64,000 nt of DNA from Saprospira grandis str. Lewin. Its GTDB lineage: Bacteria; Bacteroidota; Bacteroidia; Chitinophagales; Saprospiraceae. The notes under the pieces are model-generated. The model saw nothing but the letters and a program-made list of their open reading frames with translations, was not told the DNA's origin and ran no database searches. Below, in pieces: positions 2,397 to 62,197 of the stretch; positions within the stretch are counted from its first letter, which is position 1, and each line of letters begins with the position of its first letter. The stretch covers positions 3,038,501-3,102,500 of the forward strand of contig NC_016940.1 in assembly GCF_000250635.1 (NCBI RefSeq). The letters are read 5' to 3'. The translations under genes and the position numbers were made by a program.

Positions 2397-2545
2397 TTTT
2401 TTGGGGCCTGCCGCCTGCGGCGGCCGGGCCATTGCGCAGCTCGCAGTTCTGCTCGGCCCTGCGGCGCTTGCAGCGCCTTGGTCGGCCGCTTTGCGGCCCT
2501 GCTACATGTCCCTAGGCCTGCGGCGGCTTCGCCGCCTGTCCCCCG
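2397..2545 (+). repeat. GC-rich modular intergenic repeat, copy 1
   Basis: Starts with TTTTTTGGGGCCTGCC directly after the terminator. It carries the conserved core (here GCAGTTCTGCTCGGCCCTGC, one change from consensus) and then the hairpin GGCGCTTGCAGCGCC, the box TTGGTC, the hairpin GGCCGCTTTGCGGCC and a last hairpin GGCGGCTTCGCCGCC. It fills part of the 594-base gap before gcvH. Confidence 0.8.
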
Positions 2546-2730
2546 CAAAAAAATACCTTTTTTTAAAAAGGCGGCCACCAAAATACAAGCCGCTTACATC
2601 TAGTTAAATAGAGAAAGCGCTTAAAGGAGAAGAAGACGGCTCTGCCGCCTCTGGCCCAGAGAAAAAAAATACTTTTTTTTACAAGGCAAGCACCAAAATA
2701 CAAGCCGCTTACATCTAGTCAAATAGAAAG
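2546..2730 (+). repeat. Pair of ~70-bp imperfect direct repeats
   Basis: Two copies (2546-2616 and 2662-2730) share an A-run/T-run start, then CACCAAAATACAAGCCGCTT and ACATCTAGT(T/C)AAATAG. They are about 115 bases apart and separated by a GCCGCCTCTGG segment. The rest of the gap, to 2932, is AT-rich with no gene visible. Confidence 0.7.
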
Positions 2731-2932
2731 TTCTTAAAGACGAATTGGGCGGCAATATATGCAGCCCCGCAAGGAAAAAAGCGAAATTAAAGGAAGTGCT
2801 TTAGTGATTTCCCCAAAAAAAAATTATTTTTGGCAGCAAATGCCCCAAAATGGCGGCCCAATAACTTCGGGCCAATCTATTCTTGTGGGCCAATCACAAT
2901 TTTAATATCCTTTAATTAAGCTAGTTTCGCTT

Positions 2933-3313
2933 ATGAACATTCCAGAAAATCTGAAGTACAGTAAGGACCACGAATGGGTTCGCCTAGAAGGGGAGTTCGC
3001 TTTTGTTGGTATTACTGATTTTGCCCAATCCGAACTCGGAGATATCGTTTATGTTGATATTTCTGAAGAAGGGGAGGACCTAGACGCTGATGAAATCTTT
3101 GGCTCTGTAGAAGCTGTGAAAACAGTTTCAGACCTAATGATGCCTATTAGCGGAGAGGTAGTAGAATTTAACGAAGGCCTAGAAGATAGCCCCGAGTTGG
3201 TTAACTCTGATCCCTACGGCGAAGGCTGGATGGTTAAAATCAAAGTTCGAGATGCTGCCGAAATGGACGATTTGATGGATGCCGCTGCTTATAAAGCAGC
3301 CATCAATGCTTAA
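2933..3313 (+). CDS. gcvH: Glycine cleavage system H protein
   Basis: Lipoyl-carrier protein that shuttles the aminomethyl group between the P, T and L proteins of the glycine cleavage system in the cytoplasm. The 126 residues match the usual family size. The lipoyl-lysine loop [19 protein letters not shown] is present, with Lys63 the expected attachment site, preceded by the conserved DHEWVR and [17 protein letters not shown] stretches. The P and T proteins are not in the window. The stop codon overlaps the ATG of the next gene by eight bases, so the two are probably co-transcribed. Lipoyl synthase (lipA), which can supply the cofactor, is encoded at 28.5 kb. Confidence 0.96.
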
Positions 3314-3641
3314 GCGACTTTTTTCCTCAGCCTATTTTTTGGCCCTGATTGCCTTGGTCTTGCTCTCGCTTTGGCCCCTGCAATTGCCCGCTAGCCTAAA
3401 TGGCTTGGGCTGGGATAAATTAGCTCATTTTCTTTTTTACTTTGGCCTACTGCTCTTGGGCAATAGCGTCTGGACCAAAAAAAGAAATAATCTCTATTTT
3501 AGCCTCGCTTTGGGCCTTCTCCTAGAGTGTTTGCAAGACCTTAGCCCTTACCGTCAATTTGACTATTGGGATCTGGCCGCAAATACAATGGGCGCCCTGA
3601 TGGGCTACTATTTATTAAGGAAATATTCATTGTTTCAATAA
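3306..3641 (+). CDS. VanZ-like membrane protein
   Basis: Small inner membrane protein of 111 residues with about four predicted transmembrane helices ([59 protein letters not shown]). The pattern [13 protein letters not shown], then a helix ending in LECLQ and [13 protein letters not shown], is that of VanZ-like proteins, named after a teicoplanin-resistance gene but mostly of unknown function. An upstream in-frame ATG at 3279 lies inside gcvH; I chose ATG 3306 because it overlaps the gcvH stop, gives a Lys-Arg start just before the first helix, and suits translational coupling. Confidence 0.75.
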
Positions 3642-3671
3642 ACTATTTTTTTCACCCAAAACCACAGAATT

Positions 3672-4658
3672 ATGCTGTTAGGATTCCTCTCTAACGACTT
3701 TCTGATGGCGAGCATTATGGTCTCTGGAAGCCAAATTGTAATTAGCCTCGTTGGGCTGATTGCGGTTTCTGCCGGAGCTATTTTTGGCTACAAATCCTAT
3801 TTGGCTAAGCAGAGCGAAAAGCTCATGCAGGCCAAGGAAGGAAAGGAAGATGCCAATTACTCGGCCATTACTAGAAAGTACGAGGAGGTGAATGTGTTTA
3901 AGCACTCGCCCATGGTGTACCGGGCAGGTTTGGCATGTTCGCTCTTTGTGGTCTTCTTGGCGCTAAACTGGACTCAAACCGAATGGGAAGAGTTTGCTTT
4001 TGAGGAGGAAACGGTGATCGAATCAGAAGAAATTCTGATTGATGTGCCTAACACGCCACCACCTCCGCCTCCGCCACCACCGCCACCACCACCGCCACCT
4101 CCTCCCACGCAGGTACAAATTGATGATACCAAGCCGGAGCCTCCCCCTGAGCCACCTTCTCAGGATGATGAGCAACAGGATCAGGAAGGAGATAAAGATG
4201 GTAAGGAAGGAGGAACAGGTGCTCCACCTCCCCCTCCGCCCCCGCCACCTCCTCCCCCCCCTCCACCTCCCCCCAAAGCCCCCGAGGTTTTTGAGTTTGT
4301 GGAGCAGTTTCCTCGCTTCCCCGGTTGTGAGGATAAGGAAGGCTCTGATGCAGAAAAGAAGCAATGTGCTGATTTGAAGCTCCGTGCCTATTTGGCCAAA
4401 AAAGCAGGTTATCCCGCTATGGCCCGTGAAAATGGCATCGAAGGAACCGTTTACGTTCGTTACATCGTACTAGAAGATGGCCGTATCGCCAATGTTGAAG
4501 TCGTTCGCGACATGACTGGCGGTGGAGGACTAGCAGAAGCTGCCCTCCGTGCTGTGAAAAGTATGAATAGTATGAAGGAAAAATGGACCCCCGGTCGCCA
4601 AAGAGGTAATCCCGTACGTGTACGTATGGTAGTGCCCATCAAGTTCCAATTGAACTAA
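3672..4658 (+). CDS. TonB family energy transducer with two polyproline tracts
   Basis: Inner membrane protein that transmits the proton-motive force to outer membrane receptors. The 328 residues hold an N-terminal hydrophobic segment (about 12-40), a cytoplasm-like charged linker, a second membrane helix (about 80-97), two long proline tracts (about 125-145 and 185-205) separated by an acidic stretch, and a C-terminal TonB domain (about 240-328: YPAMARENGIEGTVYVRYIV, then WTPGRQRGNPVRVRMVVPI). Most TonB proteins have one membrane helix, so the extra one is unusual. No exbB or exbD lies beside it. Start ATG 3672 is taken; ATG 3705 is an alternative. A strong terminator follows. Confidence 0.88.
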   Translation: MLLGFLSNDFLMASIMVSGSQIVISLVGLIAVSAGAIFGYKSYLAKQSEKLMQAKEGKEDANYSAITRKYEEVNVFKHSPMVYRAGLACSLFVVFLALNWTQTEWEEFAFEEETVIESEEILIDVPNTPPPPPPPPPPPPPPPPPTQVQIDDTKPEPPPEPPSQDDEQQDQEGDKDGKEGGTGAPPPPPPPPPPPPPPPPPKAPEVFEFVEQFPRFPGCEDKEGSDAEKKQCADLKLRAYLAKKAGYPAMARENGIEGTVYVRYIVLEDGRIANVEVVRDMTGGGGLAEAALRAVKSMNSMKEKWTPGRQRGNPVRVRMVVPIKFQLN

Positions 4659-4684
4659 ATCTTGGCTTAGGCCAAACGCTATAG

Positions 4685-4714
4685 AGCTACTCCCTTGGGA
4701 GTAGCTTTTTTTTT
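4685..4714 (+). terminator. Intrinsic terminator of the tonB gene
   Basis: Perfect stem AGCTACTC/GAGTAGCT with a short CCTTGG loop and nine T, 26 bases after the stop codon. Confidence 0.9.
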
Positions 4715-4737
4715 GGCCCAAAGCAAGGCATCTTGGC

Positions 4738-4975
4738 CCAAAACGACCGAAGGGAGTAAGGCGCGCAGCGCCTCGGCTGAGGGATGGAAAGCAGGGGCCC
4801 GAAGGGCCAGACCCAGCCGCCAAAGGCGGCGCAGGGCCGAGCAGACCTGCGAGCTGCGACACAGCCCGACCCGAGCCGATAATTCATGAGGGTTTCAACC
4901 CTCATTTTATATCGCTTCGCAAAGCGATACCGCTTTGCGCTGGGTTTCAACCCGGCGGAAGGGGCAGCCCCAAAA
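4738..4975 (-). repeat. GC-rich modular intergenic repeat, copy 2, with inserted palindrome module
   Basis: Reads on the - strand from GGGGCTGCCCC. The core hairpin is GCCGCCTTTGGCGGC, followed by TGGGTCTGGCCCTTCGGGCC and ATCCCTCAGCC. Between the left arm and the core lies an extra ~95-base module holding two GGGTTTCAACCC palindromes (one at 4886-4905) around the hairpin ATCGCTTCGCAAAGCGAT; the same module is in the copy at 13.9 kb. From 4976 to 5163 no gene is seen. Confidence 0.8.
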
Positions 4976-5163
4976 AAATAGCCTCCTAATAAAAATGAGG
5001 GCCAAAGCTTAAATAAAAAAGAAGATTGTGTATATTTTGGGTCTTGGAATCAAAAGTTTGTTTGCTTCCCACTAAACTGACATCAACAATCAATTTAAGC
5101 TGCTGCTTAGTTGCCTCATAATTAGGCAGTAAGGAGGCAGAAGATAGAAAAACAACAAAATAT

Positions 5164-6870
5164 ATGTCTACTGTAGAAAAACGATGGCTGAAAAATTACC
5201 CCCAAGGCGTTCCTCATGAAATCGATTTTGGAGGATACACCAGCTTAGTAGATTTGGTTAATGAGAACCTGAAAAAATATGCAAACCGTCCCGCTTTTAG
5301 AAGTTTTGTGGGCAGTTCAGAAAAGGCCCTTAGCTTTGCGGAGGTAGATCAGTTATCGAAGCAGTTTGCGGCCTATTTACAAAATGATATGGGCCTTAAA
5401 CCTGGCGATCGCTTGGCGTTGATGATGCCCAACCTTCTACAGTATCCTATTGCTCTTTTTGCGGCTATGCGTGCGGGTTTGACCATTGTTAATACCAATC
5501 CGCTTTATACAGCCAGAGAAATTGAGCATCAATTTAATGATGCAGAGGTAACTGCGGTGATCATTGCCGAAAACTTTGCGGCCGAGCTCGAAAAAGTAAT
5601 CGATAAGACCCAAGTGAAACGCAATAAGGTGATTGTTGTGAGCATTGGGGAGATGTTTGGCGGCTTTAAGGGCTGGCTGATCAATTTTGCGGTGCGCAAT
5701 CTTAAGAAAATGGTCCCTAGCTATAATTTGGCTGGGCATATCAAATTTAAAAAGGCCCTCAATAAAGGGAATGCTAGCCAGCTCAAAATGGCTACTGGCG
5801 GCCAACTCGATGATGTAATTTGCCTACAATATACGGGCGGTACTACTGGGGTGGCCAAGGGGGCCGAACTGACCAATAAAAACCTATTGGCCAATGCTTT
5901 TCAGGTAGAAGGCTGGATCAAGAGCGCCAATATCAAAGAAGGACAGGAGCGTATCTTAACCCCGCTTCCGCTCTATCATATTTTCTCCTTTACGGTAAAT
6001 TTACTTTGTTTGGGGACTTCTTTTGGTGCCTGCAATGTTTTGGTGGTCAATCCTAGAGATTTACCCGCGGTGGTGGACATCATGAAAAAGACGCAGCCGT
6101 CTATTATGACTGGCGTAAATACCTTATTTAATGCCCTTTTGAATCATGCAGAATTTGCGCAGCTCGATTTTTCTAAGCTACAGATTGTTATTGGGGGAGC
6201 CATGGCTATCCAGAAACCCGTGGCTGAAAAATGGAAAAAAGTAACGGGTTCTACCTTGACAGAAGGTTACGGCATGACCGAAGCCTCTCCGGTGGTTTCT
6301 GTCAATCCGCTCTATGATGAGGGCCGTATTGGCACCATTGGTTTGCCTATTCCCTCTACCGAAATTCGCATTTGCGATGAAGAAAATAACCCCTTACCTT
6401 TGGGCGAGGCTGGAGAAATTCAAGTTCGGGGGCCTCAGGTGATGAAGGGCTACCTCAACCGCCCAGAAGCTACGGCCAAAACCATTATTGACGGTTGGTT
6501 GCGCACTGGAGATGTGGGCATTATGGATGAAGATGGCTTTGTAAAAATTGTGGACCGCATTAAGGACATGATTTTGGTTTCGGGCTTTAATGTTTATCCC
6601 AACGAAATTGAGGAGGTCCTTGCTGCTCATCCCAAAGTTTTGGAGGTGGCCGCAGTTGGCGTTCCCGATCCCAAATCTACGGAGGCCGTTAAGGTCTTTG
6701 TGGTTAAAAAAGATCCTTCTTTGACCGAAGAGGAGCTACGGGCTTTCTCTAAAGAAAACTTTACGGGCTACAAAAAGCCTAAGCATTATGAATTTAGAGA
6801 GGAGTTGCCCAAGACCAATGTGGGTAAAATCCTTCGCCGGGCCCTAAGAGATGAGGCCAAACAGGCATAA
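5164..6870 (+). CDS. fadD: Long-chain acyl-CoA synthetase (AMP-forming)
   Basis: Activates fatty acids to acyl-CoA using ATP through an acyl-adenylate, feeding beta-oxidation or lipid synthesis; membrane-associated in the cytoplasm. The 568 residues cover the whole ANL fold: the phosphate loop YTGGTTGVAKGAELT at about 221-235, GYGMTEASPVVS at about 376, GWLRTGDVG, the hinge/binding motif KDMILVSGFNVYPNEIEEV and the C-terminal catalytic lysine region PKTNVGKILRRALRDE. Length and motifs match bacterial FadD. Acyl-CoA dehydrogenases are encoded at 12.6 and 51 kb. It is probably a single-gene unit, with a repeat on its left and a terminator on its right. Chain-length preference cannot be read from the sequence. 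Confidence 0.93.
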   Translation: MSTVEKRWLKNYPQGVPHEIDFGGYTSLVDLVNENLKKYANRPAFRSFVGSSEKALSFAEVDQLSKQFAAYLQNDMGLKPGDRLALMMPNLLQYPIALFAAMRAGLTIVNTNPLYTAREIEHQFNDAEVTAVIIAENFAAELEKVIDKTQVKRNKVIVVSIGEMFGGFKGWLINFAVRNLKKMVPSYNLAGHIKFKKALNKGNASQLKMATGGQLDDVICLQYTGGTTGVAKGAELTNKNLLANAFQVEGWIKSANIKEGQERILTPLPLYHIFSFTVNLLCLGTSFGACNVLVVNPRDLPAVVDIMKKTQPSIMTGVNTLFNALLNHAEFAQLDFSKLQIVIGGAMAIQKPVAEKWKKVTGSTLTEGYGMTEASPVVSVNPLYDEGRIGTIGLPIPSTEIRICDEENNPLPLGEAGEIQVRGPQVMKGYLNRPEATAKTIIDGWLRTGDVGIMDEDGFVKIVDRIKDMILVSGFNVYPNEIEEVLAAHPKVLEVAAVGVPDPKSTEAVKVFVVKKDPSLTEEELRAFSKENFTGYKKPKHYEFREELPKTNVGKILRRALRDEAKQA

Positions 6871-6886
6871 GAATTTATTTAGGACG

Positions 6887-6912
6887 AAAAGGGGCTTCGG
6901 CCCCTTTTTTTT
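6887..6912 (+). terminator. Intrinsic terminator of the acyl-CoA synthetase gene
   Basis: AAAAGGGGC-TTCG-GCCCCTTTTTTTT, a tetraloop hairpin with a T run, 17 bases after the stop. Confidence 0.92.
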
Positions 6913-6929
6913 GGAGAAAAAAAAGCAGT

Positions 6930-7712: not shown

Positions 7713-7719
7713 CTGAATT

Positions 7720-7748: not shown

Positions 7749-7882
7749 TGGGGCAGCCCCTTCGGCCTGCGGCCTCGGGTCGCTATGTTGCGGGGCTCGC
7801 TGCTCGCTCGGCCCTGCGTCGCTTCGCTCCTCGGTCTGGCCTTCGGCCACCCACTCCACAGCGCTCAGCCGCTCCACCTCAT
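7744..7882 (+). repeat. GC-rich modular intergenic repeat, copy 3
   Basis: Begins TTTTTTTGGGGCAGCCCC and contains GGGGCTCGC, a diverged core (TGCTCGCTCGGCCCTGC) and TCGGTCTGGCCTTCGGCCAC, ending with the CCACAGCGCT box. The core hairpin slot is poorly paired in this copy. It lies between two convergent genes; nothing else is seen to 8097 except the ychF terminator. Confidence 0.8.
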
Positions 7883-10557: not shown

Positions 10558-10707
10558 TTTGGGGCCCGCGGCCAGTTCGGCCTTCGGCCTCAGTTGGCCG
10601 CCGCTATGCTGCGCCGCTCGCAGGTCTGCTCGGCCCTGCGTTTTTTTCGCTACGCTCAAAAAACTGGGTCTGGCCTTCGGCCACGGCTGCGCAGCGCTGG
10701 GCCTGCA
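10558..10707 (+). repeat. GC-rich modular intergenic repeat, copy 4
   Basis: Left arm GGGGCCCGCGGCC with the hairpin TTCGGCCTTCGGCC, then CGCTATGCTGCGCCGCTC and the core GCAGGTCTGCTCGGCCCTGC. The core hairpin here is AT-rich, GTTTTTT paired with AAAAAAC, followed by TGGGTCTGGCCTTCGGCCAC and GCGCAGCGCTGGGCC. Confidence 0.85.
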
Positions 10708-11801: not shown

Positions 11802-11932
11802 GATGAGCGGATGAGCGATGCGCAGCAGTGGCCGAAGGCCAGACCAAAGCGGCGAAGCCGCTGCAGGGCCGAGCAGACCTGCGAGCTGCGAAGCGTAGCG
11901 ACCCGAGCCGAAGGCGAGGGGCAGCCCCAAAA
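11802..11932 (-). repeat. GC-rich modular intergenic repeat, copy 5
   Basis: Reads on - from GGGGCTGCCCC through GGGTCGCTACGC and the core. The core hairpin is AGCGGCTTCGCCGCT, then TTGGTCTGGCCTTCGGCCAC and GCGCATCGCTCATC. It lies between two convergent genes. Confidence 0.85.
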
Positions 11933-13863: not shown

Positions 13864-14100
13864 TTTTGGGGCTGCCCCTTCCGCTAGGTTAAAACCCAGC
13901 GCAAAGCGGTATCGCTTTGCGAAGCTATACAAAATGAGGGTTAAAACCCTCATGAATTATCGGTCGGGTCGCTCCCCTTAGGGCTCGCAGGTCTGCTCGG
14001 CCCTGCAGTTTTTTCGCTGCGCTCAAAAACTTGGGTCTGGCCTTCGGCCACCCTGCCGGGCAGCTCAGCCTGCGGCGGCTTCGCCGCCTGTCCTCTGCAA
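13864..14100 (+). repeat. GC-rich modular intergenic repeat, copy 6, with palindrome module
   Basis: Starts TTTGGGGCTGCCCC and carries a ~95-base insert nearly identical, in the element frame, to that in copy 2: palindromes GGGTT-AAAACCC-type (13884-13901 and 13934-13953) around ATCGCTTTGCGAAGC. Then the core, a hairpin AGTTTTT/AAAAACT, TTGGGTCTGGCCTTCGGCCAC and GGCGGCTTCGCCGCC. It fills most of the gap between gcdH-like and subtilase genes. Confidence 0.85.
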
Positions 14101-15962: not shown

Positions 15963-16124
15963 TAGGGGGCGGCGCAGCCGCCCGGCTGAGGGATGGATAG
16001 TGGTGCGGCGTAGCCGCAGACCCAAGGCTTTTGAAGCAAAGCGAAAAAGCCTGCAGGGCCGAGCAGACCTGCGAGCCACGACACAGCCCGACCCGCCCGT
16101 AGGGCGGGGCAGCCCCCCAAAAAA
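15963..16124 (-). repeat. GC-rich modular intergenic repeat, copy 7
   Basis: Reads on - from GGGGGGCTGCCCCGCCC through GGGTCGGGCTGTG and the core. The core hairpin is AGGCTTTT paired with AAAAGCCT, the next slot CGGCTACGCCG, then ATCCATCCCTCAGCC and GGCGGCTGCGCCGCC. Confidence 0.85.
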
Positions 16125-18626: not shown

Positions 18627-18765
18627 TTTTTGGGGCCCGCGGCCGGCTAGGCTTTGCCTAGGTCGGCCGCCGCTATGCTACGGGGCTCACAGGTCTGTTC
18701 GGCCCTTCGCAGGCTTCGCCTGCTCGGTCTGGCCTTCGGCCACCCACTCCGCAGCGCCAATAGGG
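18627..18765 (+). repeat. GC-rich modular intergenic repeat, copy 8
   Basis: Left arm GGGGCCCGCGGCCGG with the hairpin CTAGGCTTTGCCTAG, then CGCTATGCTACGGGGCTC and a core with two changes. The core hairpin is GCAGGCTTCGCCTGC, followed by TCGGTCTGGCCTTCGGCCAC. It lies between two - strand genes; 18766-18861 holds nothing further. Confidence 0.85.
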
Positions 18766-18861
18766 CCTAAAGCTTTAACGAACTCTTAAAAATAGTATTT
18801 TAGCAAAGAGGAACAAAAGATTTTCAGCCTGCGCAAAAACTCGACCTAAAAGCAGGGGAAC

Positions 18862-23261: not shown

Positions 23262-23407
23262 CTATTTGGCCGAAGGCCAAAATGGCCTAGCGATGCGAAA
23301 GGGGGCGGCGAAGCCGCAGACCGAGGAGCGGAGCGACGAAGGGCCGAGCGAATAGCGAGCCCTGAAGCGTAGCGCCGCAAGGCGAAGCCGCAGCGGAGGC
23401 CCCAAAA
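23262..23407 (-). repeat. GC-rich modular intergenic repeat, copy 9
   Basis: Reads on - from TTTTTTTGGGGCCTCCGC through GGCGCTACGC and GGGCTCGC, with a diverged core (TATTCGCTCGGCCCTTC). TCGGTCTG is followed by CGGCTTCGCCG. Spans most of the 379-base gap before the next gene. Confidence 0.8.
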
Positions 23408-26481: not shown

Positions 26482-26622
26482 GGGGCCTCCCGCCTTCGGC
26501 GGGCGGGCCCTTTCAGGGCTCGCAGGTCTGCTCGGCCCTGCGGGCTCATTTCATTTCGCCCTAGGTCTGCCGCTACGCGGCCCCCTTTCAGGCCCCTAGG
26601 CCGACGGGCCTTCGGCCCTTTT
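26477..26622 (+). repeat. GC-rich modular intergenic repeat, copy 10
   Basis: Begins TTTTTTGGGGCCTCCCGCC with the hairpin CCGCCTTCGGCGG, then TTTCAGGGCTC and the core. The core hairpin is GGGC paired with GCCC over a longer loop, followed by TAGGTCTGCCGCTACGCGG. It lies directly before the defence-like gene pair. Confidence 0.8.
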
Positions 26623-29565: not shown

Positions 29566-29806
29566 CTGCGCCGAAGGCGCAGTGCGGCGCAGCCGCAAAT
29601 TGGCCTAGCGATGTGCAGGGGGGCGGCGCAGCCGCAGACCCAGGCGCTTTGCGCCGCAGGGCCGAGCAGACCTGCGAGCCCCGGAACGTAGCGCCGCAGC
29701 TTTGCTGCGGAGGCCCCAAAACATCTGCGAGCCTTGGAACGACAACAAGCCCTTTAGGGCGCAGTTCGACGACCGAAGGGAGTAACCGCCGCAGCGGAGG
29801 CCCCAA
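29566..29806 (-). repeat. GC-rich modular intergenic repeat, copy 11, extended
   Basis: Reads on - from GGGGCCTCCGC. It is longer than other copies: a second GGGGCC(T/C)C arm begins at about 29716 (AACATCTGCGAGCC, GGGCGCAGTTCGACGACCGAAGGG) before the arm AGCTTTGCTGC. The core is followed by hairpin GGCGCAAAGCGCC, TGGGTCTGCGGCTGCGCCGCC and GCCTAGC. It looks like two partly overlapping elements in the 370-base gap. 29437-29565 shows nothing else. Confidence 0.75.
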
Positions 29807-33376: not shown

Positions 33377-33524
33377 TTTGGGGCCTCCGCCTCCCTTCGG
33401 TCGTCGGCGCTACGTTTCAGGGCTCGCAGGTCTGCTCGGCCCTTCGTTTTTCGCTACGCTCAAAACTCGGTCGGGCCTGCGGCCCCCCTTTCACATCGCT
33501 AGGCCAAGGCGCTTCGCGCCTTTC
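33377..33524 (+). repeat. GC-rich modular intergenic repeat, copy 12
   Basis: Begins TTTTGGGGCCTCCGCC, with GGTCGTCGGCGCTACGTTTC and the core (GGCCCTTC form). The core hairpin is GTTTT paired with AAAAC, then TCGGTCGGGCCTGCGGCC and CGCTAGGCC. It lies between the ends of two convergent genes. Confidence 0.8.
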
Positions 33525-36609: not shown

Positions 36610-36746
36610 TGCCGTTGAGCGGCCTAGCGCTGTGTAGGGGTGGCCCGCAGGGCCAGACCGAGCCGCCAAAGGCGGCGAAGGGCCGAGCAGACCTGCGAGC
36701 CCCGAAACATAGCGCCGACGAGCGCAGCGAGGCGGAGGCCCCAAAA
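36610..36746 (-). repeat. GC-rich modular intergenic repeat, copy 13
   Basis: Reads on - from TTTTTGGGGCCTCCGCC through GGCGCTATGTTTCGGGGCTC and the core (GGCCCTTC form). The core hairpin is GCCGCCTTTGGCGGC, then TCGGTCTGGCCCTGCGGGCC and GCGCTAGGCCGC. It separates the LRR-subtilase and CHAT genes. Confidence 0.85.
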
Positions 36747-40396: not shown

Positions 40397-40540
40397 GGGG
40401 CTGCCCCGGCCTTTGGCCGGGTCGGGCTGTGCCGCAGCTCGCAGGTCTGCTCGGCCCTGCGCCGCCTGTGGCGGCTGGGTCTGGCCTTCGGCCACTGCTA
40501 TCCATCCCTCAGCCAGCGGCTTCGCCGCCTCTAGATGCAA
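40397..40540 (+). repeat. GC-rich modular intergenic repeat, copy 14 (clear example)
   Basis: GGGGCTGCCCC, hairpin CCGGCCTTTGGCCGG, GTCGGGCTGTGCCGCAGCTC, the core GCAGGTCTGCTCGGCCCTGC, core hairpin GCCGCCTGTGGCGGC, TGGGTCTGGCCTTCGGCCAC, TGCTATCCATCCCTCAGCC, hairpin AGCGGCTTCGCCGCCT and CTAGATGC. This copy shows all modules in order. Confidence 0.9.
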
Positions 40541-42093: not shown

Positions 42094-42246
42094 GGGAGGC
42101 GGCAAAGCCGCCTTGGCCGAAGGCCAAAAATGGCCTAGCGCTGTGCAGGGGGGGCCGTAGGCCAGACCCAGCCGCCGCAGGCGGCGCAGGGCCGAGCAGA
42201 CTTGCGAGCCCCGAAACATAGCGCCGCAGCTTTGCTGCGGAGGCCC
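42094..42246 (-). repeat. GC-rich modular intergenic repeat, copy 15
   Basis: Reads on - from GGGGCCTCCGCAGCAAAGCTGC through GGCGCTATGTTTCGGGGCTCGC and the core (AAGTCTGCTCGGCCCTGC). The core hairpin is GCCGCCTGCGGCGGC, then TGGGTCTGGCCTACGGCC, GCGCTAGGCC and GCGGCTTTGCCGC. Its first base touches the stop codon of the subtilase gene. Confidence 0.85.
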
Positions 42247-43953
42247 CTAATGCTGCAGAATCAACTTTGCCGAAAACTGCTCGCTTTTTCGTCCTTTGGG
42301 CCAAAGATTGAGCAAATAACTCCCTTGGGGAATGGCCGAAAAATCTAGTGGCAAGCTGCGGCCCAAAAGTGGCGCATTGCCTCGGGCGACCTCTTGGCCC
42401 AATAAATTGAATAGGCGATATTCTATTTCATCATAGCTATCAGGCAATAAAACAATGAGTTTTCCTTGGCTAGGGTTGGGCAAGATACTCAATTTGTAGG
42501 CATTATCTTCCATGATGGGGTAGACTAAATTGGGACGGACCAAGGCCAGCGCCCGCCAAAGGTCTAGGCGGCCCCAACCTGCAGTAAAATTGGGATGGGC
42601 ATCCTGGGCCAAGCCTCCACAATCTTCGCCAGGCAAGGGCAAGGCCGACTGCCGCAAAATTTCTTCTATGCGCTCCACATCTCCCTTGAGCTCGGGGGCG
42701 GCAGAGAGCAAAAGGGCCACGGCCGCAGCCACATGAGGGCCCGCCATACTGGTTCCCGAAGAGCTGCTGTAGCCTTCATTGAGGACCGAAGAGCGGATAT
42801 TGACCCCGGGGGCGGCAATATCGGGCTTGGGCTTGTCGTTGCTTGGGGTCAGCGATGGCCCGCGACTACTAAAGCCTGCAATTTGGTCATCTATATTACT
42901 GGCAGCTACCACAAAAGATTCTCCAAAAATAGCGGCTGGATTTTGAATACTGCCGCAGCTAGGGCCCTCATTTCCAGCCGAAACCACCACCATAATACCG
43001 GCTGCTTTTAGGTTAATTACCGCTTGGCGAAGCAGGGCAAAGTTATCGGGATGGCAGCCTTCTACGGGGGGGCAGCCCCAAGAATTATTGATCACATCGG
43101 GGGCTTTGCTAGGGTCTGCATCGCTACCGCTAAGGTTTGTAGGGGCCAAAAACCACTCAAAGCACTCCAAATAGCTGGCGGGGCTCCCCCAGCCTCGGTC
43201 CATATTTCGGCAGCCAATCCATTGAGACTCTGGGGCAAGACCAATCGTTTCGTTGGGGGCAAGGCCCGCCATGGTCCCCATGGTATGGGTACCGTGAGCA
43301 TGGTCGTCGCAGGGCGCTTGGGCATCAAAGCCACAGGGATTATCTGAAGTATTGTGCAAGGGGCTGGCCTCATGAATGGCATCATGCCAGTTATAATTAT
43401 GGTCATTTTGGGCGGTTCCTCTATATTGGCTATTGATGGCTGGATGCTCCCAATCGTAGCCTGTATCTTGGCCAGCTAGCACTACCTCAGCGCCCTTAAA
43501 GCCCAAGGCCCAGAGAAGCTGCGCCCGTACCTGCTCGATGCCCCAATTGCTATAGCTTTTGCTGCCATGAGCTACTGGAAAACTTGCCTGCATATTGGGA
43601 TTGGGAAGAATGCGGGCAATATCGGCTCGTTGGGCCAACTGTTCCAAATCGCTTGCTTTGGCCCAAACTCTTATTGCATTGACCACTAAAAAAGACTGAT
43701 GCTGAAGCTCTAAATCCTTTAATTGGGCCAAAATAGGCTCCTGTGCAGCCTGCGCTTTTTGGAGTTGGGCAAAGACATAGCGGCCCTTGGCCAATTTGTC
43801 TTTTTTGGGCAAGTTCGGAAACTCAGCCTGCTGCTCCAACAATAAAAAACAATCAATTAAAGACTTTTGCTCCAGATCAATAATGGGCGAAATCTTTTGG
43901 GCCCAAAATAAGGTCGGTAAAGCAGAGAAAAAAAGCAGGTAGATGATGCGCAT
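42247..43953 (-). CDS. Secreted subtilisin-like (S8) serine protease, type IX cargo
   Basis: A 568-residue secreted protease. The signal peptide is MRIIYLLFFSALPTLFWAQ, followed by an N-terminal propeptide-like domain (~20-125). The triad is intact: Asp163 in VVLAGQDTGYDWEHP, His220 in DDHAHGTHTMG, Asn in VVVSAGNEGPSCG and Ser402 in SGTSMAGPHVAAAVALLLS. The last ~80 residues (ILPNPSQGKLIVLLPDSYDEIEYRL, IPQGSYLLNLWPKG) are a type IX sorting domain. The repeat next door abuts the stop. It resembles classical subtilisins more closely than the two other S8 proteins. Confidence 0.92.
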   Translation of the reverse strand: MRIIYLLFFSALPTLFWAQKISPIIDLEQKSLIDCFLLLEQQAEFPNLPKKDKLAKGRYVFAQLQKAQAAQEPILAQLKDLELQHQSFLVVNAIRVWAKASDLEQLAQRADIARILPNPNMQASFPVAHGSKSYSNWGIEQVRAQLLWALGFKGAEVVLAGQDTGYDWEHPAINSQYRGTAQNDHNYNWHDAIHEASPLHNTSDNPCGFDAQAPCDDHAHGTHTMGTMAGLAPNETIGLAPESQWIGCRNMDRGWGSPASYLECFEWFLAPTNLSGSDADPSKAPDVINNSWGCPPVEGCHPDNFALLRQAVINLKAAGIMVVVSAGNEGPSCGSIQNPAAIFGESFVVAASNIDDQIAGFSSRGPSLTPSNDKPKPDIAAPGVNIRSSVLNEGYSSSSGTSMAGPHVAAAVALLLSAAPELKGDVERIEEILRQSALPLPGEDCGGLAQDAHPNFTAGWGRLDLWRALALVRPNLVYPIMEDNAYKLSILPNPSQGKLIVLLPDSYDEIEYRLFNLLGQEVARGNAPLLGRSLPLDFSAIPQGSYLLNLWPKGRKSEQFSAKLILQH

Positions 43954-46275: not shown

Positions 46276-46418
46276 TTTGGGGCCCGCGGCCGGCTAGCCT
46301 TCGGCTAGCTCGGCCGCCGCTATGCTTCGCCGCTCGCAGGTCTGCTCGGCCCTGCAGCCGCCTGCGGCGGCTTGGGTCTGGCCCTTCGGGCCACGGCTGC
46401 GCAGCGCTGGGCCAAATA
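46276..46418 (+). repeat. GC-rich modular intergenic repeat, copy 16
   Basis: Left arm GGGGCCCGCGGCC with hairpin GCTAGCCTTCGGCTAGC, then GCCGCCGCTATGCTTCG and the core. The core hairpin is AGCCGCCTGCGGCGGCT, then TGGGTCTGGCCCTTCGGGCCAC and GCGCAGCGCTGGGCC. Confidence 0.88.
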
Positions 46419-47463: not shown

Positions 47464-47600
47464 AGGGCGGCGAAGCCGCCCTGGCCTAGCGATGTGTAGG
47501 GGTGGCCGTAGGCCAGACCGAGCCAGCTTGCTGGCGAAGGGCCGAGCGAATAGCGAGCCCCGAAACGTAGCGCCGCAGCAAAGCTGCGGAGGCCCCAAAA
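47464..47600 (-). repeat. GC-rich modular intergenic repeat, copy 17
   Basis: Reads on - from TTTTGGGGCCTCCGCAGC through GGCGCTACGTTTCGGGGCTCGC, a diverged core (TATTCGCTCGGCCCTTC), the hairpin GCCAGCAAGCTGGC, TCGGTCTGGCCTACGGCC and GCGATGTGTAGGGG. It lies between the DUF3137 and cytochrome c genes. Confidence 0.8.
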
Positions 47601-52885: not shown

Positions 52886-53013
52886 GGCCTTGGGGCTGTC
52901 CTGTATCCGAATAAAGTTTTACCCTAGGCGAGTCAACTTCATGAGGGTTTCAACCCTCATCTATATATTATTGCGTAGCAATACCATTGTTGCTGTAGGT
53001 TTCAACCTACAGT
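52886..53013 (+). repeat. Degenerate repeat copy with two perfect palindromes (copy 18)
   Basis: Begins GGGGCTGTCC but lacks the core. It contains ATGAGGGTTTCAACCCTCAT (52941-52960), the hairpin ATTGCGTAGCAAT and CTGTAGGTTTCAACCTACAG (52993-53012), the same layout as the insert in copies 2 and 6. Confidence 0.6.
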
Positions 53014-55377: not shown

Positions 55378-55527
55378 TTGGGGCTGCCCCTGCGGCCTTC
55401 GGCCTTGGGTCGGGCCATTGCGCAGCTCGCAGGTCTGCTCGGCCCTGCAGCGCTTTCAGCGCTTTGGTCTGCCGCCTTCGGCGGCCCTGCTACAGCCCCT
55501 CAGCCGGCGGCTTCGCCGCCTCTAGAC
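55378..55527 (+). repeat. GC-rich modular intergenic repeat, copy 19
   Basis: GGGGCTGCCCC, hairpin CGGCCTTCGGCC, GGGTCGGGCCATTGCGCAGCTC, the core, core hairpin AGCGCTTTCAGCGCT, TTGGTCTGCCGCCTTCGGCGGCC, CCCTCAGCC, GGCGGCTTCGCCGCC and TCTAGAC. Its right end joins the 42-bp tandem array without a gap. Confidence 0.88.
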
Positions 55528-57478: not shown

Positions 57479-57502
57479 TTTGGCCATGTGGCACTGCCGC
57501 TA

Positions 57503-57698: not shown

Positions 57699-57701
57699 CA
57701 T

Positions 57702-57836
57702 GGCCGAAGGCCAAACGGCCTAGCGATGCGGCGGGGTGGCGCGTAGCGCCAGACCCAGGCGGCGAAGCCGCCGCAGGGCCGAGCAGACCTGCGAGCCCCA
57801 AAGCGTAGCGCCTGCCGAAGGCAGGAGGCCCCAAAA
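57702..57836 (-). repeat. GC-rich modular intergenic repeat, copy 20
   Basis: Reads on - from TTTTGGGGCCTCC with the hairpin CTGCCTTCGGCAG, GGCGCTACGCTTTGGGGCTCGC and the core. The core hairpin is GGCGGCTTCGCCGCC, then TGGGTCTGGCGCTACGCGCC and CGCTAGGCCG. Confidence 0.88.
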
Positions 57837-57837
57837 C

Positions 57838-57870
57838 AAAAAAAAAGAGCCACCGAAAAACGGCAGCTCT
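57838..57870 (-). terminator. Intrinsic terminator of the trans-sulfuration gene (- strand)
   Basis: On the - strand AGAGCTGCCG..CGGTGGCTCT forms a stem followed by T9; the gene stop is at 57900. Confidence 0.82.
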
Positions 57871-57899
57871 ATATCGTATAGATTCCAAAAGGGGAGGAC

Positions 57900-59039
57900 C
57901 TATCCTAGGGCCTTATCTAAATCAGCCAAAAGGTCATCGGCATCTTCTACCCCAACAGAAAGGCGAATGATCGAGTCGGTCAAGCCCACTTTGAGGCGCT
58001 CTTCGCGGGGAATAGCCGCATGCGTCATGCTAGCAGGATGGCCAATGAGTGATTCTACGCCACCCAAAGACTCGGCACAAGTGAAATAATGTACTTTTTC
58101 GAGCACCTTAGCGGCAGCTTCTGCGGTATCCTCCTTGAGATTAAAGGAAAGCATAGCGCCAAAGCCGCGCATCTGCTTTTTGGCAGTTTCATGTCCCGCA
58201 TGATGGGCCAAACCAGGATAATACACCTTGTCTACCTTGGGGTGCTGCATCAAGAAGTCGGCAATTTTAGCGGCATTTTCGCTCGCTCTTTGCACCCGAA
58301 GATGTAGAGTTTTGATGCCACGAAGGACCAAGAAGCAATCTTGGGGACCAGGAACGGCGCCCACAGAATTCTGGATAAAGTAGAGTTTTTCGGCCAAGGC
58401 TTCATCCTTGACCACCAAAGCACCCATCACCACATCAGAGTGGCCACCTAGGTATTTAGTCACCGAGTGCATGACGATATCGGCGCCAAGGTCCAAGGGG
58501 TTTTGGAGGTAAGGCGTAGCAAAAGTATTGTCTACACAAACCATGATATTGTGCTTTTTGGCTACGGCACAAATGGCCTCAATATCAATAATATTGAGCA
58601 TGGGGTTGGTGGGCGTTTCTACCCAAATGAGCTTAGTTTTTTCGGTAATATGGGCCTCAATTTCGGCGGTGCCCTGCATCCCTACAAACTGAAACTTGAT
58701 GCCATAGCGGCTAAAGACCTTCGTAAAGAGGCGGTAAGATCCGCCATAAAGGTCGTTGGTAGAAATCACCTCATCGCCTGGATCGAGCAGGTGCAAAAGG
58801 GCAGCTTCTGCGGCAAGGCCAGAGCCGAAAGTAAGGCCAAACTGTCCATTTTCTAGGGCAGCCAAGTTATCTTCTAGGGCTTTGCGGGTCGGGTTGAGCG
58901 TTCTAGAATACTCATAACCTTTATGTTGGCCCGGAGAGCTTTGGGCATAAGTAGAAGTCTGATAAATGGGCGTCATAATCGCTCCCGTTGCGGGATCGGG
59001 TTCAATACCTGCGTGAATGACTTTGGTTCCGAATTTCAT
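57900..59039 (-). CDS. Cystathionine gamma-synthase/lyase-type trans-sulfuration enzyme
   Basis: PLP-dependent enzyme of methionine/cysteine metabolism. From ATG 59039 there are 379 residues, the size of MetB/Cth-type proteins; the extra 17 residues upstream were dropped. The PLP lysine is in [21 protein letters not shown], the PLP-ring site in [22 protein letters not shown], the phosphate site and active-site Tyr in [15 protein letters not shown], and the substrate Arg region in [18 protein letters not shown]. Features such as [22 protein letters not shown] fit both synthase and gamma-lyase, so the direction of the reaction is not settled. It is followed by a terminator. Confidence 0.93.
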
Positions 59040-59136
59040 AAAAATAAGTCGTTTAATTCGATTCTTAAATGAAGTTAGGGGAAGATACAAAAGTAGGGCT
59101 GTCTAGCCAAGTTCTAAGCGTTCATTAAGACTACAC

Positions 59137-60255
59137 TTAGATTTTGCTATACATTTGGGCGGTAAAGCCGTTGCGCATACGGGGCTCTACATAAGTAGAT
59201 TTTGGGGGGAGGGTCCCTCTGAGGTCCGAGATAGAAATGAGGTCTTCCATAGCCACGGGATAGAGGTTGAAGGCGGCCACGGCCGACTCTTCATCTACCT
59301 TTCGCTCTAGGGCCGCGGGGCCTTTCACGCCCCCTACATAACGGACCTCCACATCATTGCGGACATCCTCAATGCCCAGGATATCTTGTAAAATATAGCG
59401 ATTGAAGAGGTGGACATCTAGGCTATCGGCCACGCTGGTTTCATCGCCGGGGCTATATTCTTCCTTTAAAATGAGCTTGCGCCAACGGCCCTTAATATAG
59501 CAACCCATTTCGCCACGGCGGAGTGGGCGGAAGGCCATGGGTTCTAGGCTGACCTCATAATATTTCTCTAGTTTTTGCAAAAATTCCTCTTCGCTAAGTC
59601 CTTTGAGCGACTTAAGAATGCGATTATAGTTATGGATCAGGATCTCGCTAGCGGGAAAATAGGCGGCCATAATATAGTGGTAAGGATTTTTGGCCTCCTT
59701 ACTTTTATGTTGGGCATACAGCCGTTCGGCGGTGGTCATGCGGTGGTGTCCATCGCAGATATAGCTGCTTGGAATTTTATCTTTAAAGAGTTCTTGCAGC
59801 CGCTGTACATGCTCTTCTTCCTTGAGCAACCAGAATACATGTTGGTCGTCTTCAAAGGGAATTTTAAAGCTAGGGGGCATAGAAATCGTGATGCGGTTAA
59901 TCAGAGCATCAATTTCTAGCACATTGGGGTAAGTGAGCAAAATGGGTTTAATCACACCATTGCGCTCCTCAAAAAGCTCCTGCATCCGGGCCTCCTTATC
60001 GGCCAAGGTAAACTCATGTCGTTTGATATGGCCCTGAATATAATCCTCTACATGGGTGCAGGCAATAATACCGGTATGGCTGCGGTTGTGTCGGATAATT
60101 CGATAAATCAGCAGGCTAGGTTCTTGGTCCATTTGGTAGTAGCCATCTCGGTAATAGAGGGGGAACTTGCGTTTGGCGGTACCAAAAAAGTCGTCAAAGG
60201 AAATAATGTCGTTGAGGTCGGGCAAAACTGGCCGAAAAGGGATAATGTTAGCCAT
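59137..60255 (-). CDS. DUF1015 family protein
   Basis: A 372-residue cytoplasmic protein of the DUF1015 family, still of uncertain function in most organisms. The signature SSYICDGHHRMTTAERLYAQ and the opening IIPFRPVLPD...IISFDDFF, with IVKPI/ITTYPN-type strands, identify it; length is somewhat below the ~410 typical of the family. It has no signal peptide. It is 97 bases downstream-side of the trans-sulfuration gene and preceded by a repeat; amino acid metabolism is a possible link but is only suggested by position. Confidence 0.85.
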   Translation of the reverse strand: MANIIPFRPVLPDLNDIISFDDFFGTAKRKFPLYYRDGYYQMDQEPSLLIYRIIRHNRSHTGIIACTHVEDYIQGHIKRHEFTLADKEARMQELFEERNGVIKPILLTYPNVLEIDALINRITISMPPSFKIPFEDDQHVFWLLKEEEHVQRLQELFKDKIPSSYICDGHHRMTTAERLYAQHKSKEAKNPYHYIMAAYFPASEILIHNYNRILKSLKGLSEEEFLQKLEKYYEVSLEPMAFRPLRRGEMGCYIKGRWRKLILKEEYSPGDETSVADSLDVHLFNRYILQDILGIEDVRNDVEVRYVGGVKGPAALERKVDEESAVAAFNLYPVAMEDLISISDLRGTLPPKSTYVEPRMRNGFTAQMYSKI

Positions 60256-60291
60256 AATAATGTTGTTTTCTGTTGTTTGTTAGTCGATATT

Positions 60292-60413
60292 TTGGGGCCT
60301 CCGCAGCGCTTCGCTTGCGGCGCTATGTTGCGGGGCTCGCAGGTCTGCTCGGCCCTGCGCCGCCTGTGGCGGCTGGGTCTGGCCTTCGGCCACCCCTCCA
60401 CAGCGCTAGGCCA
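60292..60413 (+). repeat. GC-rich modular intergenic repeat, copy 21
   Basis: TTTTGGGGCCTCCGC, AGCGCTTCGCTTGCGGCGCTATGTTGCGGGGCTC, the core, core hairpin GCCGCCTGTGGCGGC, TGGGTCTGGCCTTCGGCCAC and CCACAGCGCTAGGCC. Confidence 0.9.
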
Positions 60414-60447
60414 TAAAAAAGGCCAGCTCCAAGGGGGGAGCTGGCCA
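60414..60447 (-). terminator. Intrinsic terminator of porV (- strand)
   Basis: Stem GGCCAGCTCC/GGAGCTGGCC followed on - by six T, about 30 bases past the PorV stop. Confidence 0.88.
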
Positions 60448-60479
60448 AATATATTACAAACTTTTTGTAAAAAAGCAGT

Positions 60480-61757
60480 TTATTTTTTGGTATCAAATTC
60501 AGGGGCCTCGCCAAAGTCAAAAACAAGCGAAAAGCGAAGCGTATTATCTAGGGGATTGCGTTGGGCGGCTACGGCAGGCACTAGATAAGAGAAGTTGATA
60601 TTAAAGATGTTATACTTCAGGCCAAGGCCTACCGTAAAGTACTTGCGGTTTCCTTTAGTCGAGTGCTCGTTATAGTGGCCGGCACGTACAGCAAACTGTT
60701 TGTTGTACCAATACTCCATACCAATAGAGTACATCAGTTCTCTAAACTCTTCGCCAGCGCCAGCGGGGGCATCATTAAAAGAAGAGAAAATAGAGCTAGG
60801 GACAGACTGCTGTTTGTAGTCGGCGGTACCATCTCCTTGGCCCGCATCTCCATCGCTGTCGTATTCTGGATTTTCGACTAGGTTGCCGTTTTCGTCCTCG
60901 ATGCTACGGGGAATGGGCGTGGGCACCATCAATTTATTGATATCTAGGGCAAAGGTGATCGAGTTATGCTCATCAATATCATAGGTAAAGGCAGAGCCTA
61001 GGCCAATATTGGCGGGCAGATAATCGCGGTCGGCAGATTGGGTATAAGAGATTTTAGAGCCCAAGTTGGTCATGGCCAGACCGATACGCAGATTGGCTTC
61101 CTTGTCATTGACCTTCAAGGGTTTGTTGTAGGTAAAGGAAACATCGGCAGCAAAGGCGTGGGCGGGCGTGAGGGTTTCTCCACCAGCGGCTACGCCTGTT
61201 CCTAAGCTAGAGTAAATATACTTAAGGTTAAGAGCGGCCGAAAAGTTTTGGCTCATTTTACGGGCATAGGCGCCAGTGAGTTCAAACTCTCTGGGGCTAA
61301 CCGTTTGCAGGGCGTTTCCTTGATCGTCGGTATATTGGATTTCTCCTAGGGAGAAATAGCGGAGAGAGCCGCCTAGGGTTTGGCGGTCATCTAGGTGTTT
61401 ATAGACCGAGACATAAGAGAGAAAAACGTCATTGAGGCCTAGGGCGCGAAGCCAAGGCGTATAATTCATAGATACTCCTACATCGCTAGAGGCCCAGGCG
61501 AGATTAGAAGAGTTGAAGTGCATAGAGTTGGGGTCGGCATCTAGGGCGATACCGGCATCGCCCATAGCACCAAAGCGAGCATCTGGGGTAATGCGCAAAA
61601 AGGGAACAGCAGTAATAATGGTATTCGAGCAGGGGCTGCCATCGGGTTGAACGAGTTGTCCATCTTTAAGGATACACTGCGCTTTAGCTTCGGGCAAACC
61701 CAAAAATATTCCTAGGCCTAGAACAAAACTAAAGGCCTGCAAGATTCTCTGTTGCAT
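60480..61757 (-). CDS. porV: Type IX secretion outer membrane protein PorV
   Basis: Outer membrane beta-barrel that shuttles type IX cargo from the translocon to the PorU sortase. The 425 residues start with a signal peptide (MQQRILQAFSFVLGLGIFLGLPEAKAQ) and the family signature TAVPFLRITPDARFGAMGDAGIALDADPNSMHFNSSNLAWA, then SLGEIQYTDDQGN and YIYSSLGTGVAAGG, ending in a barrel strand with SLVFDFG. The gene order porU-porV, as in other Bacteroidota, supports the call; it lies 443 bases after porU with a repeat between. At least three S8 proteins in the window are likely clients. Confidence 0.94.
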   Translation of the reverse strand: MQQRILQAFSFVLGLGIFLGLPEAKAQCILKDGQLVQPDGSPCSNTIITAVPFLRITPDARFGAMGDAGIALDADPNSMHFNSSNLAWASSDVGVSMNYTPWLRALGLNDVFLSYVSVYKHLDDRQTLGGSLRYFSLGEIQYTDDQGNALQTVSPREFELTGAYARKMSQNFSAALNLKYIYSSLGTGVAAGGETLTPAHAFAADVSFTYNKPLKVNDKEANLRIGLAMTNLGSKISYTQSADRDYLPANIGLGSAFTYDIDEHNSITFALDINKLMVPTPIPRSIEDENGNLVENPEYDSDGDAGQGDGTADYKQQSVPSSIFSSFNDAPAGAGEEFRELMYSIGMEYWYNKQFAVRAGHYNEHSTKGNRKYFTVGLGLKYNIFNINFSYLVPAVAAQRNPLDNTLRFSLVFDFGEAPEFDTKK

Positions 61758-62027
61758 AAGAGGTTAGATTAAATTTAAGATGATAATAGTTGGGCTGGCA
61801 CCTAAAGGTATTAGCCCCAAAGTAAAGCTGCTACATAGATGAGAATTAAGTTATAAGTTTTGAGGGAGGGGAGCCCTTTTGTTTATTTTTGGCTGAGGAT
61901 AAGTTGTGCGTTTTTGTGTTTTGGCGCCTAAAAATAGGGCTAAATCTTTGAGTTTTGTTAAAAAAAATGGACAAACTTGGGCCTAAGCTACTTTAAGCGG
62001 TATTTCTAGCGCTTGAGGACCAAGGCG

Positions 62028-62197
62028 CAGGCAGGCCCTAGGCCTGCCTGCTCGGCGCCCTAGGGGCGCCTTTCACGGATGAGCGATGCGCCGCAGTGGC
62101 CCTTAGGCCAGACCCAGCCGCCGCAGGCGGCGCAGGGCCGAGCAGAGAGCGAGCTGCAGAGCGTAGCGACCCGCCCGCAGGGCGGGACAGCCCCAAA
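62028..62197 (-). repeat. GC-rich modular intergenic repeat, copy 22
   Basis: Reads on - from TTTTTTGGGGCTGTCCC through CCGCCCTGCGGGCGG, GGTCGCTACGCTCTGCAGCTCGC, a diverged core, the hairpin GCCGCCTGCGGCGGC, TGGGTCTGGCCTAAGGGCCAC, GCGCATCGCTCATC and two large GC hairpins (AGGCAGGCCTAGGGCCTGCCT type). It abuts the porU 3' end. 61758-62027 is AT-rich and shows no gene. Confidence 0.85.

Follow-up and report, generated by a model that had tools for sequence, protein, structure and literature searches.

An intergenic repeat in Saprospira

The stretch analysed here, hereafter the window, comprises 64,000 nucleotides of Saprospira grandis str. Lewin, a marine predatory bacterium (contig NC_016940.1, positions 3,038,501 to 3,102,500) and carries 21 copies of a non-coding repeat, spread from ~2.4 to 62.2 kb in both orientations (Table 1), when copies are counted as GCTCGGCCCT at no more than one mismatch with GGTC[TG]G downstream. 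This bears out the roughly 22 dispersed copies proposed in a first-pass annotation of the sequence. The 20-mer core of the repeat, allowed up to three mismatches, is found 17 times in the window against 0 expected from 100 shuffles. The second box that had been proposed, GGTCTGGCC-TTCG-GGCCAC, has only one match when its hyphens are read as N, its actual form being GGTCTGGCCTTCGGCCAC and variants. With a looser signature, GCTCGGCCCT-N(12-42)-GGTCTG, 1292 copies are found in the Lewin genome (G000), and 1283 and 1273 in the two Saprospira relatives compared with it (G001 and G002), while the reversed pattern, used as a control, matches 0 times in each. The exact core occurs 441, 447 and 186 times, respectively, and 0 times in 57 other relatives covered by the same search. 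The loose signature is absent from 94 of 97 other relatives (including two of the same database genus, one at just 63% completeness), and the remaining three give 1, 3 and 1 stray matches without resemblance to the element. Neither pattern matches in G004, a genome of the same database genus, and one homologous stretch inspected there yielded no usable empty site. One window copy is matched by two Saprospira plasmid records and by no phage record, and the exact core by no viral contig; one metagenome contig (L052, 37% GC) contains the exact core once, with no element around it, and this match looks like chance. The repeat is a real, very abundant and lineage-limited interspersed repeat, structurally selected or actively homogenised. 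Among the papers searched on the S. grandis genome and its repeats and on interspersed repeats of Bacteroidetes, the Lewin genome paper lying outside this coverage, no title or abstract opening bears on it; the word 'repeat' is absent from the text of the strain WH genome note, and Saprospira is unnamed in the main text of RepRanger (PMC12306157) and of a paper on GTAG/CGTC repeats (PMC3733652).

For structural analysis 402 copies were drawn from the three genomes, and dropping ten that lacked the CTC box left 392 parsed copies; at least one of the ten (at 18761 in region B, see below) is a false match, aligned throughout with gene sequence. Both sides of the outer helix, P1, are recognised by patterns in 341 of the 392. 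These full copies have a median length of 121 nt (5-95% range 113-143 nt) and a GC content of 72%; the distance from P1 to P1' averages 124 nt, and 1292 copies amount to ~3.7% of the G000 genome. We call plus the orientation written in the first-pass annotation, with the GGGG left end first, and minus the opposite strand. On the plus strand a copy reads TTT(T), GGGG, P1 left, the P2 hairpin, P1b left, P3 left, CTC, the small P3b hairpin, TCGGCCC, the P4 hairpin, GGTC, the P5 hairpin, P3 right, P1b right and P1 right, so that the nested helices P1, P1b and P3 enclose hairpins. A further hairpin, P6, lies beyond P1 right in 58% of copies (shuffles 12.5%), and some copies have extra modules inserted in P2 or in the P1b-P3 region.

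Left arms of at least three types had been noticed in the window. There are more, namely GGCTG, GGCCT, GGCCC, GGCTT and GGCAG; for the first four, the right ends are their exact complements. Among the 341 copies the P1 partners are GGCCT/AGGCC (136), GGCTG/CAGCC (133), GGCCC/GGGCC (44), GGCTT/AAGCC (11) and others (17). P1b partners among the 392 copies, 33 left and some right sides being unparsed, include GGGCTG/CATCCC (115), GCTACG/CATCGC (113), GCTATG/CAGCGC (71) and GGGCCA/CAGCCC (20), with non-canonical positions at the centre of the helix. P3 occurs as GCAG/CTGC, GGGG/CCCC, AGGG/CCCT, GTGG/CCAC, GCCG/CGGC and others, and P4 as 228 distinct sequences among the 392 copies. The bases flanking P4 covary without forming Watson-Crick pairs, which looks as though pairing were avoided at this junction: G...G/T/A and T...C occur often, G...C and T...A rarely (5 and 2 times).

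By a codon-scored gene call, predicted genes contain just 8 of the 391 anchors. The GGGGC end points toward the 3' end of a gene in 217 of 383 cases (57%) over 1.26 Mb, a weak bias that agrees with the 14 of 22 counted before, and copies between tandem genes are 125 sense and 120 antisense. Of the gaps measuring 200 bp or more, those that hold an element are 77 of 90 between convergent genes, 188 of 246 between tandem genes and 44 of 89 between divergent genes. The T run to which the GGGGC end was said often to be fused, as part of a gene's terminator, is indeed present, but in all gene contexts and not only after terminators; T before GGGG is near-constant in every context, under a border pattern that required A or T there without favouring T over A. 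A terminator-like hairpin precedes the T run in 42% of tandem sense, 54% of convergent, 22.5% of divergent and 6.5% of tandem antisense copies, thus mostly where a gene runs in. Over the first 45 nt past P1 the base profile, in which motifs of variable spacing can be missed, shows the P6 hairpin and nothing promoter-like that is sharply conserved. At the end of the minus strand stands CCCC followed by A-rich sequence, not a T run.

Pairing, covariation and the folded strand

The base pairs of the helices and mini-hairpins are kept while their sequence changes, and the stems first noticed in the window, unlike between copies and yet complementary, recur as such among the 392 copies of three genomes. 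P1 partners are exactly Watson-Crick in 324 of 341 copies, across ~110 nt that enclose other hairpins. P3 pairs (a run of at least 4) in 0.898 of copies versus 0.447 with shuffled partners, and P4 in 0.936 versus 0.312. The normalised mutual information of partners is 0.86, 0.87, 0.59, 0.94 and 0.98, whereas unpaired segments have a median of 0.09, and the left side of P3 shares only 0.07 with P3b, its unpaired neighbour 3 nt away. Conversion-tract linkage as the source of partner matching is ruled out by this nearly uninformative nearest segment. Covariation is also significant when phylogeny is accounted for. A tree-aware null of our own design, similar to R-scape, was built from 298 copies by re-placing Fitch substitutions randomly on a FastTree tree (60 alignments); 10 of 1,711 column pairs exceed every null value, and nine of these ten are among the 31 structural pairs. 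The sole non-structural pair above the null, P4L2-P4R0, is probably a register effect of the variable hairpin. Pure phylogenetic signal is ruled out by this null, and simple copying of a few inverted units does not fit the many ways in which helix alleles are combined, with 69 combinations of P1, P1b and P3 labels among the 392 copies (some with an unparsed label). Because covariation survives the tree-aware null and partners are far more informative than nearer unpaired segments, the structure is selected or otherwise actively kept. To this extent the earlier view that neither copying nor drift alone explains the stems stands; inter-locus copying is, however, also at work.

The first-pass annotation offered RNA or a DNA cruciform as the folded molecule. 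Of the two, DNA is the better supported, with the fold on the complement of the strand that the annotation read: the plus strand shows no wobble preference, the loops are of the GNA and GNNA kind, the minus strand is preferred in DNA folding, and sense and antisense orientations are balanced among tandem copies. Plus-strand helices with one mismatch have G.T in 10, A.C in 29 and other mismatches in 62 cases, or, as distinct helices of P1, P3 and P4, A.C 16 versus G.T 7; in PMC3733652, G.T pairing was taken as a sign of RNA function in repetitive extragenic palindromes (REPs). On the minus strand, GNA triloops occur in 163 of 336 distinct hairpins (N being A in 62, C in 67, T in 21 and G in 13) and the closing pair is C-G in 287 of 336, while 1375 control hairpins outside elements give GNA in 86 (~6%) and TNC in 89. 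Minus-strand tetraloops are GNNA in 17 of 91, only 3 of those being GNRA, and control tetraloops are GNNA in 87 of 1570. DNA mini-hairpins with GNA or GNNA loops are described as extra-stable (PMC4686876), and for the promoter hairpins of phage N4 a C-G closing pair and a loop with 5' G and 3' A are reported to be needed for extrusion under physiological supercoiling (PMC4496689). The loops thus suggest folding as single-stranded DNA rather than as RNA. Of a sample of 120 of the 341 copies folded as DNA, 87.5% are more stable as the minus strand, and P1 forms in 75% on the minus strand versus 42.5% on the plus strand. Three window copies, folded as minus-strand DNA, form P1, P4 and P5 in 3/3 and P3 with the core hairpin in 2/3, with z scores of -4.2, -2.6 and -2.4 versus -3.1, -2.6 and -1.0 on the plus strand. 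RNA on the plus strand is unsupported by the wobble, folding and loop data alike. These sequence patterns lead us to infer a fold that is read in DNA and from the minus strand.

Retention of sites and exchange between copies

The fate of individual copies was followed in syntenic regions of 464, 400 and 400 kb from G000, G001 and G002 (regions A, B and C), whose flanks are 93% identical between A and B and 85% between A and C and between B and C. With 58, 37 and 38 cases excluded for lacking flanks or broken synteny, place and orientation are kept in 83 of 88 (A-B), 103 of 109 (A-C) and 83 of 89 (B-C) copies, 269 of 286 overall, and in the reverse direction in 86/91, 103/110 and 82/88. Absences number 13 of 286 in the first direction, nine of them inspected, and 12 of 289 in the reverse direction, all inspected, some sites being the same. 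The inspected ones show element remnants, internal deletions (e.g. in A at B 100380 and C 298711) or rearranged or replaced sequence, and B 18761 is the false match inside a gene already mentioned. No clean pre-insertion (empty) site is among them in either direction; one site, C 276364, is ambiguous, as A and B hold only TTTTGGG of the element. From A to C, elements are retained more often than other non-coding DNA (105/109 versus 131/172; Fisher 2e-6), the two retentions being taken by non-identical measures; of 252 control windows, 172 were testable for A-C and 125 for A-B. For the tested sites these comparisons show that the family spread before the three Saprospira species split and then stayed in place.

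Change within copies, as read from aligned orthologs, is shown to consist largely of what appears to be ectopic gene conversion, in which interior blocks are exchanged between copies. The interior from P3 to P3' is bimodal between A and B, with 27 of 80 pairs within 3 edits and 36 of 80 at 10 edits or more, and in 49 of the 80 pairs a sampled tenth of the genome holds a copy closer than the ortholog. The commonest ortholog differences are contiguous interior blocks replaced with the ends unchanged. Among complete ortholog strings (57, 75 and 52 of 80, 101 and 79 parsed pairs for A-B, A-C and B-C), pair-by-pair switching of P3 around an unchanged P4 is rejected as the main mode, being seen in 1/57, 1/75 and 0/52. 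Where P3 has changed on both sides, pairing is kept in 21, 33 and 27 and broken in 1, 4 and 6 cases; where the change is one-sided, 8, 9 and 9 cases retain pairing and 1, 4 and 6 lose it. Mispaired outcomes are a minority, 22 of 129 changed P3 pairs. The boxes are 99.4-99.5% identical between orthologs, partly through search design. With three species, ~94% of tested sites in common and fast exchange between copies, the repeat is well suited to measurements of ectopic gene conversion in bacteria.

Interpretation, rival explanations and related repeats

To the reading that best fits these results we give about an even chance: the repeat would be an ancient, no longer visibly mobile structural repeat acting at the level of DNA, maintained through its fold and renewed by gene conversion. 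A single non-coding family of ~1,290 copies per genome would have spread before the three species split and stayed put, each copy forming a scaffold of nested helices and mini-hairpins whose pairs are kept through sequence change. Ectopic gene conversion would swap interior blocks between copies, mispaired outcomes presumably being purged or repaired. Where the DNA between genes is negatively supercoiled or single-stranded, minus-strand mini-hairpins may extrude into a branched structure, and this structure could bind a structure-specific DNA protein or absorb torsion. Somewhat more tentatively, we speculate that ~1,300 intergenic sites per chromosome may be selected as folds of DNA and not of RNA, each retaining a specific branched architecture of single-stranded DNA with GNA loops by way of compensatory allele switches, and that a DNA-binding or topology-sensing system of the cell may use them as landing structures. 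Covariation is usually read as a sign of RNA structure, and here it stands alongside DNA-type loops and without a plus-strand wobble or an orientation preference. With its many copies as natural replicates, the repeat therefore allows one to ask whether selection can act on DNA secondary structure itself in a living genome.

Several observations weigh against this reading. The alleles of P1 and P1b are associated (0.58-0.65) and travel together, an exception among unpaired segments; 22 of the 31 structural column pairs, several of them invariant, fail to rise above the whole set of null values; and searching by boxes and parsing by allele patterns inflate the apparent conservation of the boxes and of P1 and P1b. 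A small number of founders could account in part for the loop and stem patterns, and the hairpins compared for their loops were called at different thresholds, 5 bp in the control and 4 bp in the element. In the 120 folded copies, P3 belongs to the minimum-energy fold in only 29% of minus strands as DNA and 27.5% as RNA, and RNA folding of the minus strand forms P1 in 83%; in copy 20 of the window the two strands fold equally well. One-sided changes of P3 broke pairing in 11 of 37 cases. Retention from A to B does not differ from the control (85/88 versus 116/125, p 0.37). Finally, negative supercoiling is expected behind promoters, whereas the copies are enriched in convergent over divergent gaps, a distribution that simply avoiding promoters would also give.

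The rival that survives best, though we consider it rather unlikely, is a decayed transposon of the kind of a miniature inverted-repeat transposable element (MITE), whose fold served past transposition and whose pairing persists through gene conversion and hairpin-correcting template switches, with no present selection. Template switching can perfect local hairpins. The copies lie in both orientations between genes, are limited to one lineage, occur also on Saprospira plasmids, exchange blocks and in some cases shrink by internal deletion, and enrichment in convergent gaps is reported for parasitic repeats (PMC3049150). Retention above that of other non-coding DNA at 15% divergence (A to C but not A to B) argues the other way, as do the near-perfect pairing of P1 around enclosed hairpins, the near-identity of the boxes, which owes something to the search, and the lack of a clean empty site or a target site duplication, direct repeats at the borders of 341 copies being equal to those of shuffled borders. 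The terminal inverted repeats are the 5-nt complementary P1 ends, much shorter than usual MITE ends.

A structured RNA is a little less probable still. The copies would be transcribed, either from the minus strand or within mRNAs as their 3' tails, and selection would act on the RNA fold, e.g. for protection of mRNA ends or protein binding. Covariation between partners, P1 formation in minus-strand RNA and the frequent position of copies directly behind genes and terminators are all consistent with it, and on the minus strand the one-mismatch helices read as G.T rather than A.C by 29 to 10, or 16 to 7 as distinct helices. Yet tandem orientation is unbiased, GNA and GNYA loops prevail over GNRA, and neither a promoter-like block beyond P1 nor a T run at the minus-strand end is seen. 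A known Rfam family is rejected as well, with 0 matches at the gathering level in the window; one copy gave one match (E 3.9), far below the cut-off.

That the element still moves, through the action of an IS200/IS605-like or RAYT transposase on single-stranded hairpins, is very improbable: its hairpin-rich ends, the near-constant TTT before the left end, the missing target duplication, one to three Y1 transposase genes per genome and the ambiguous site C 276364 would suit this view, but the inspected absences give no clean pair of occupied and empty sites, the left end lacks a GTAG/CGTC tag (2 and 0 of 341 within 8 nt), there is no local strand bias (73/70, 59/64, 65/61), and the Y1 proteins of G000 and G001 (L139, L140) differ by eye, the G000 gene lying among another repeat, CTAGGGACAAGCCCCTAGGC. 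Nothing seen shows the repeat still to be mobile. The nearest element to the Y1_Tnp gene of G000 is ~2 kb away, as expected at the element density, and three stretches of 8-9 kb around Y1 and reverse transcriptase genes reveal no link to the element. The locus L141 (G000:C1:1042001-1050000) holds on its minus strand an open reading frame of 555 aa for a reverse transcriptase, with a long inverted repeat upstream and motifs that we take to resemble those of retron reverse transcriptases; G001, G002 and even G004, a genome without the element, have RVT_1 matches with open frames of similar length.

The repeat joins the interspersed palindromic repeats, and its unusual point is probably that covariation reports a DNA fold. 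By description it resembles in kind the BOX element of Streptococcus pneumoniae, which together with RUP and SPRITE is reported to be enriched between convergent genes, with past spread and slow present movement, and which is short, modular, intergenic and highly base-paired (PMC3049150). It differs from BOX in its ~1,290 copies, lack of target duplication, covariation of nested helices, inter-locus exchange of interiors and GNA-class DNA loops. Like REP, BIME and REPIN sequences, it is a high-copy intergenic palindrome with alternative complementary stems; REPs, however, are described as 20-40 bp long, with a GTAG or CGTC tag and with subfamilies of alternative complementary stem residues (PMC3733652). 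At 113-143 nt the Saprospira element falls outside this type; near its left end such a tag is seen in 2 and 0 of 341 copies, and G.T pairing is not favoured on its plus strand. The early-promoter hairpins of phage N4, for which extrusion is reported, have the same DNA triloop, C-G closing pair and loop 5'G...3'A (PMC4496689). Those are single promoters for a phage polymerase, in contrast to genome-wide hairpin arrays on a closed scaffold, so that the likeness is one of mechanism and not of kinship. Integron attC sites vary in sequence and conserve structure, act as one folded DNA strand and lie behind genes, as these copies would; their consensus boxes are RYYYAAC ... GTTRRRY. An attC identity is ruled out, since boxes in attC order occur in 0 of 341 copies on either strand and the integron integrase model TIGR02249 is above its cut-off in 0 of 4 genomes.

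Table 1. Copies of the repeat in the window and parts of copy 14 (window positions)
Feature	Position	Strand	Remarks
Copy 1	2403..2518	+	P1 GGCCT/AGGCC; right end by eye
Copy 2	4775..4895	-	another repeat in place of P2 arm; far end approximate
Copy 3	7750..7870	+	P3b GCTGCTCGC; missed by 20-mer
Copy 4	10561..10703	+	P1 GGCCC/GGGCC, P3 GCCG/CGGC, T-rich P4
Copy 5	11809..11928	-	P1 GGCTG/CATCC, one mismatch
Copy 6	13955..14070	+	left arm replaced; left end approximate
Copy 7	15984..16118	-	P3 GTGG/CCAC
Copy 8	18632..18767	+	core hairpin ACA/TGT, not GCA/TGC; right end by eye
Copy 9	23284..23403	-	missed by 20-mer
Copy 10	26482..26602	+	P1b GGGCCCT/AGGCCCC; right end by eye
Copy 11	29602..29717	-	
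Copy 12	33380..33505	+	P3 AGGG/CCCT
Copy 13	36621..36742	-	
Copy 14	40397..40514	+	worked example of anatomy
Copy 14, P1 left GGCTG	40399..40403	+	pairs with CAGCC 40510-40514
Copy 14, P2 hairpin	40405..40421	+	triloop TTT on + (AAA on -)
Copy 14, P1b left GGGCTG	40424..40429	+	pairs with CATCCC 40503-40508, one internal mismatch
Copy 14, P3 left GCAG	40434..40437	+	pairs with CTGC 40495-40498
Copy 14, 20-mer core	40441..40460	+	P3b hairpin and TCGGCCC box, conserved
Copy 14, P4 variable hairpin GCCGCC/GGCGGC	40461..40475	+	triloop TGT on + (ACA on -)
Copy 14, P5 hairpin TGGCC-TTC-GGCCA	40482..40494	+	on - read as C-GAA-G triloop
Copy 15	42132..42247	-	
Copy 16	46279..46413	+	
Copy 17	47483..47596	-	missed by 20-mer
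Copy 18	55380..55505	+	P1b GGGCCA/CAGCCC
Copy 19	57717..57832	-	
Copy 20	60294..60412	+	
Copy 21	62077..62194	-	core diverged

Two further sequences accompany the copies. A second interspersed palindrome, GCGGTATCGCTTTGCGAAGC with GGGTTGAAACCC, lies at 4886-4933 and 13906-13953 of the window and also at 52941, and in several copies it extends or replaces the left arm of the element. The module TACTCCCTTCGGTCGTCGAACTG (window ~29762) occurs 23, 29 and 4 times in regions A, B and C, of which 20, 21 and 4 are no more than 260 bp from an element anchor, sometimes as an inserted extra arm.

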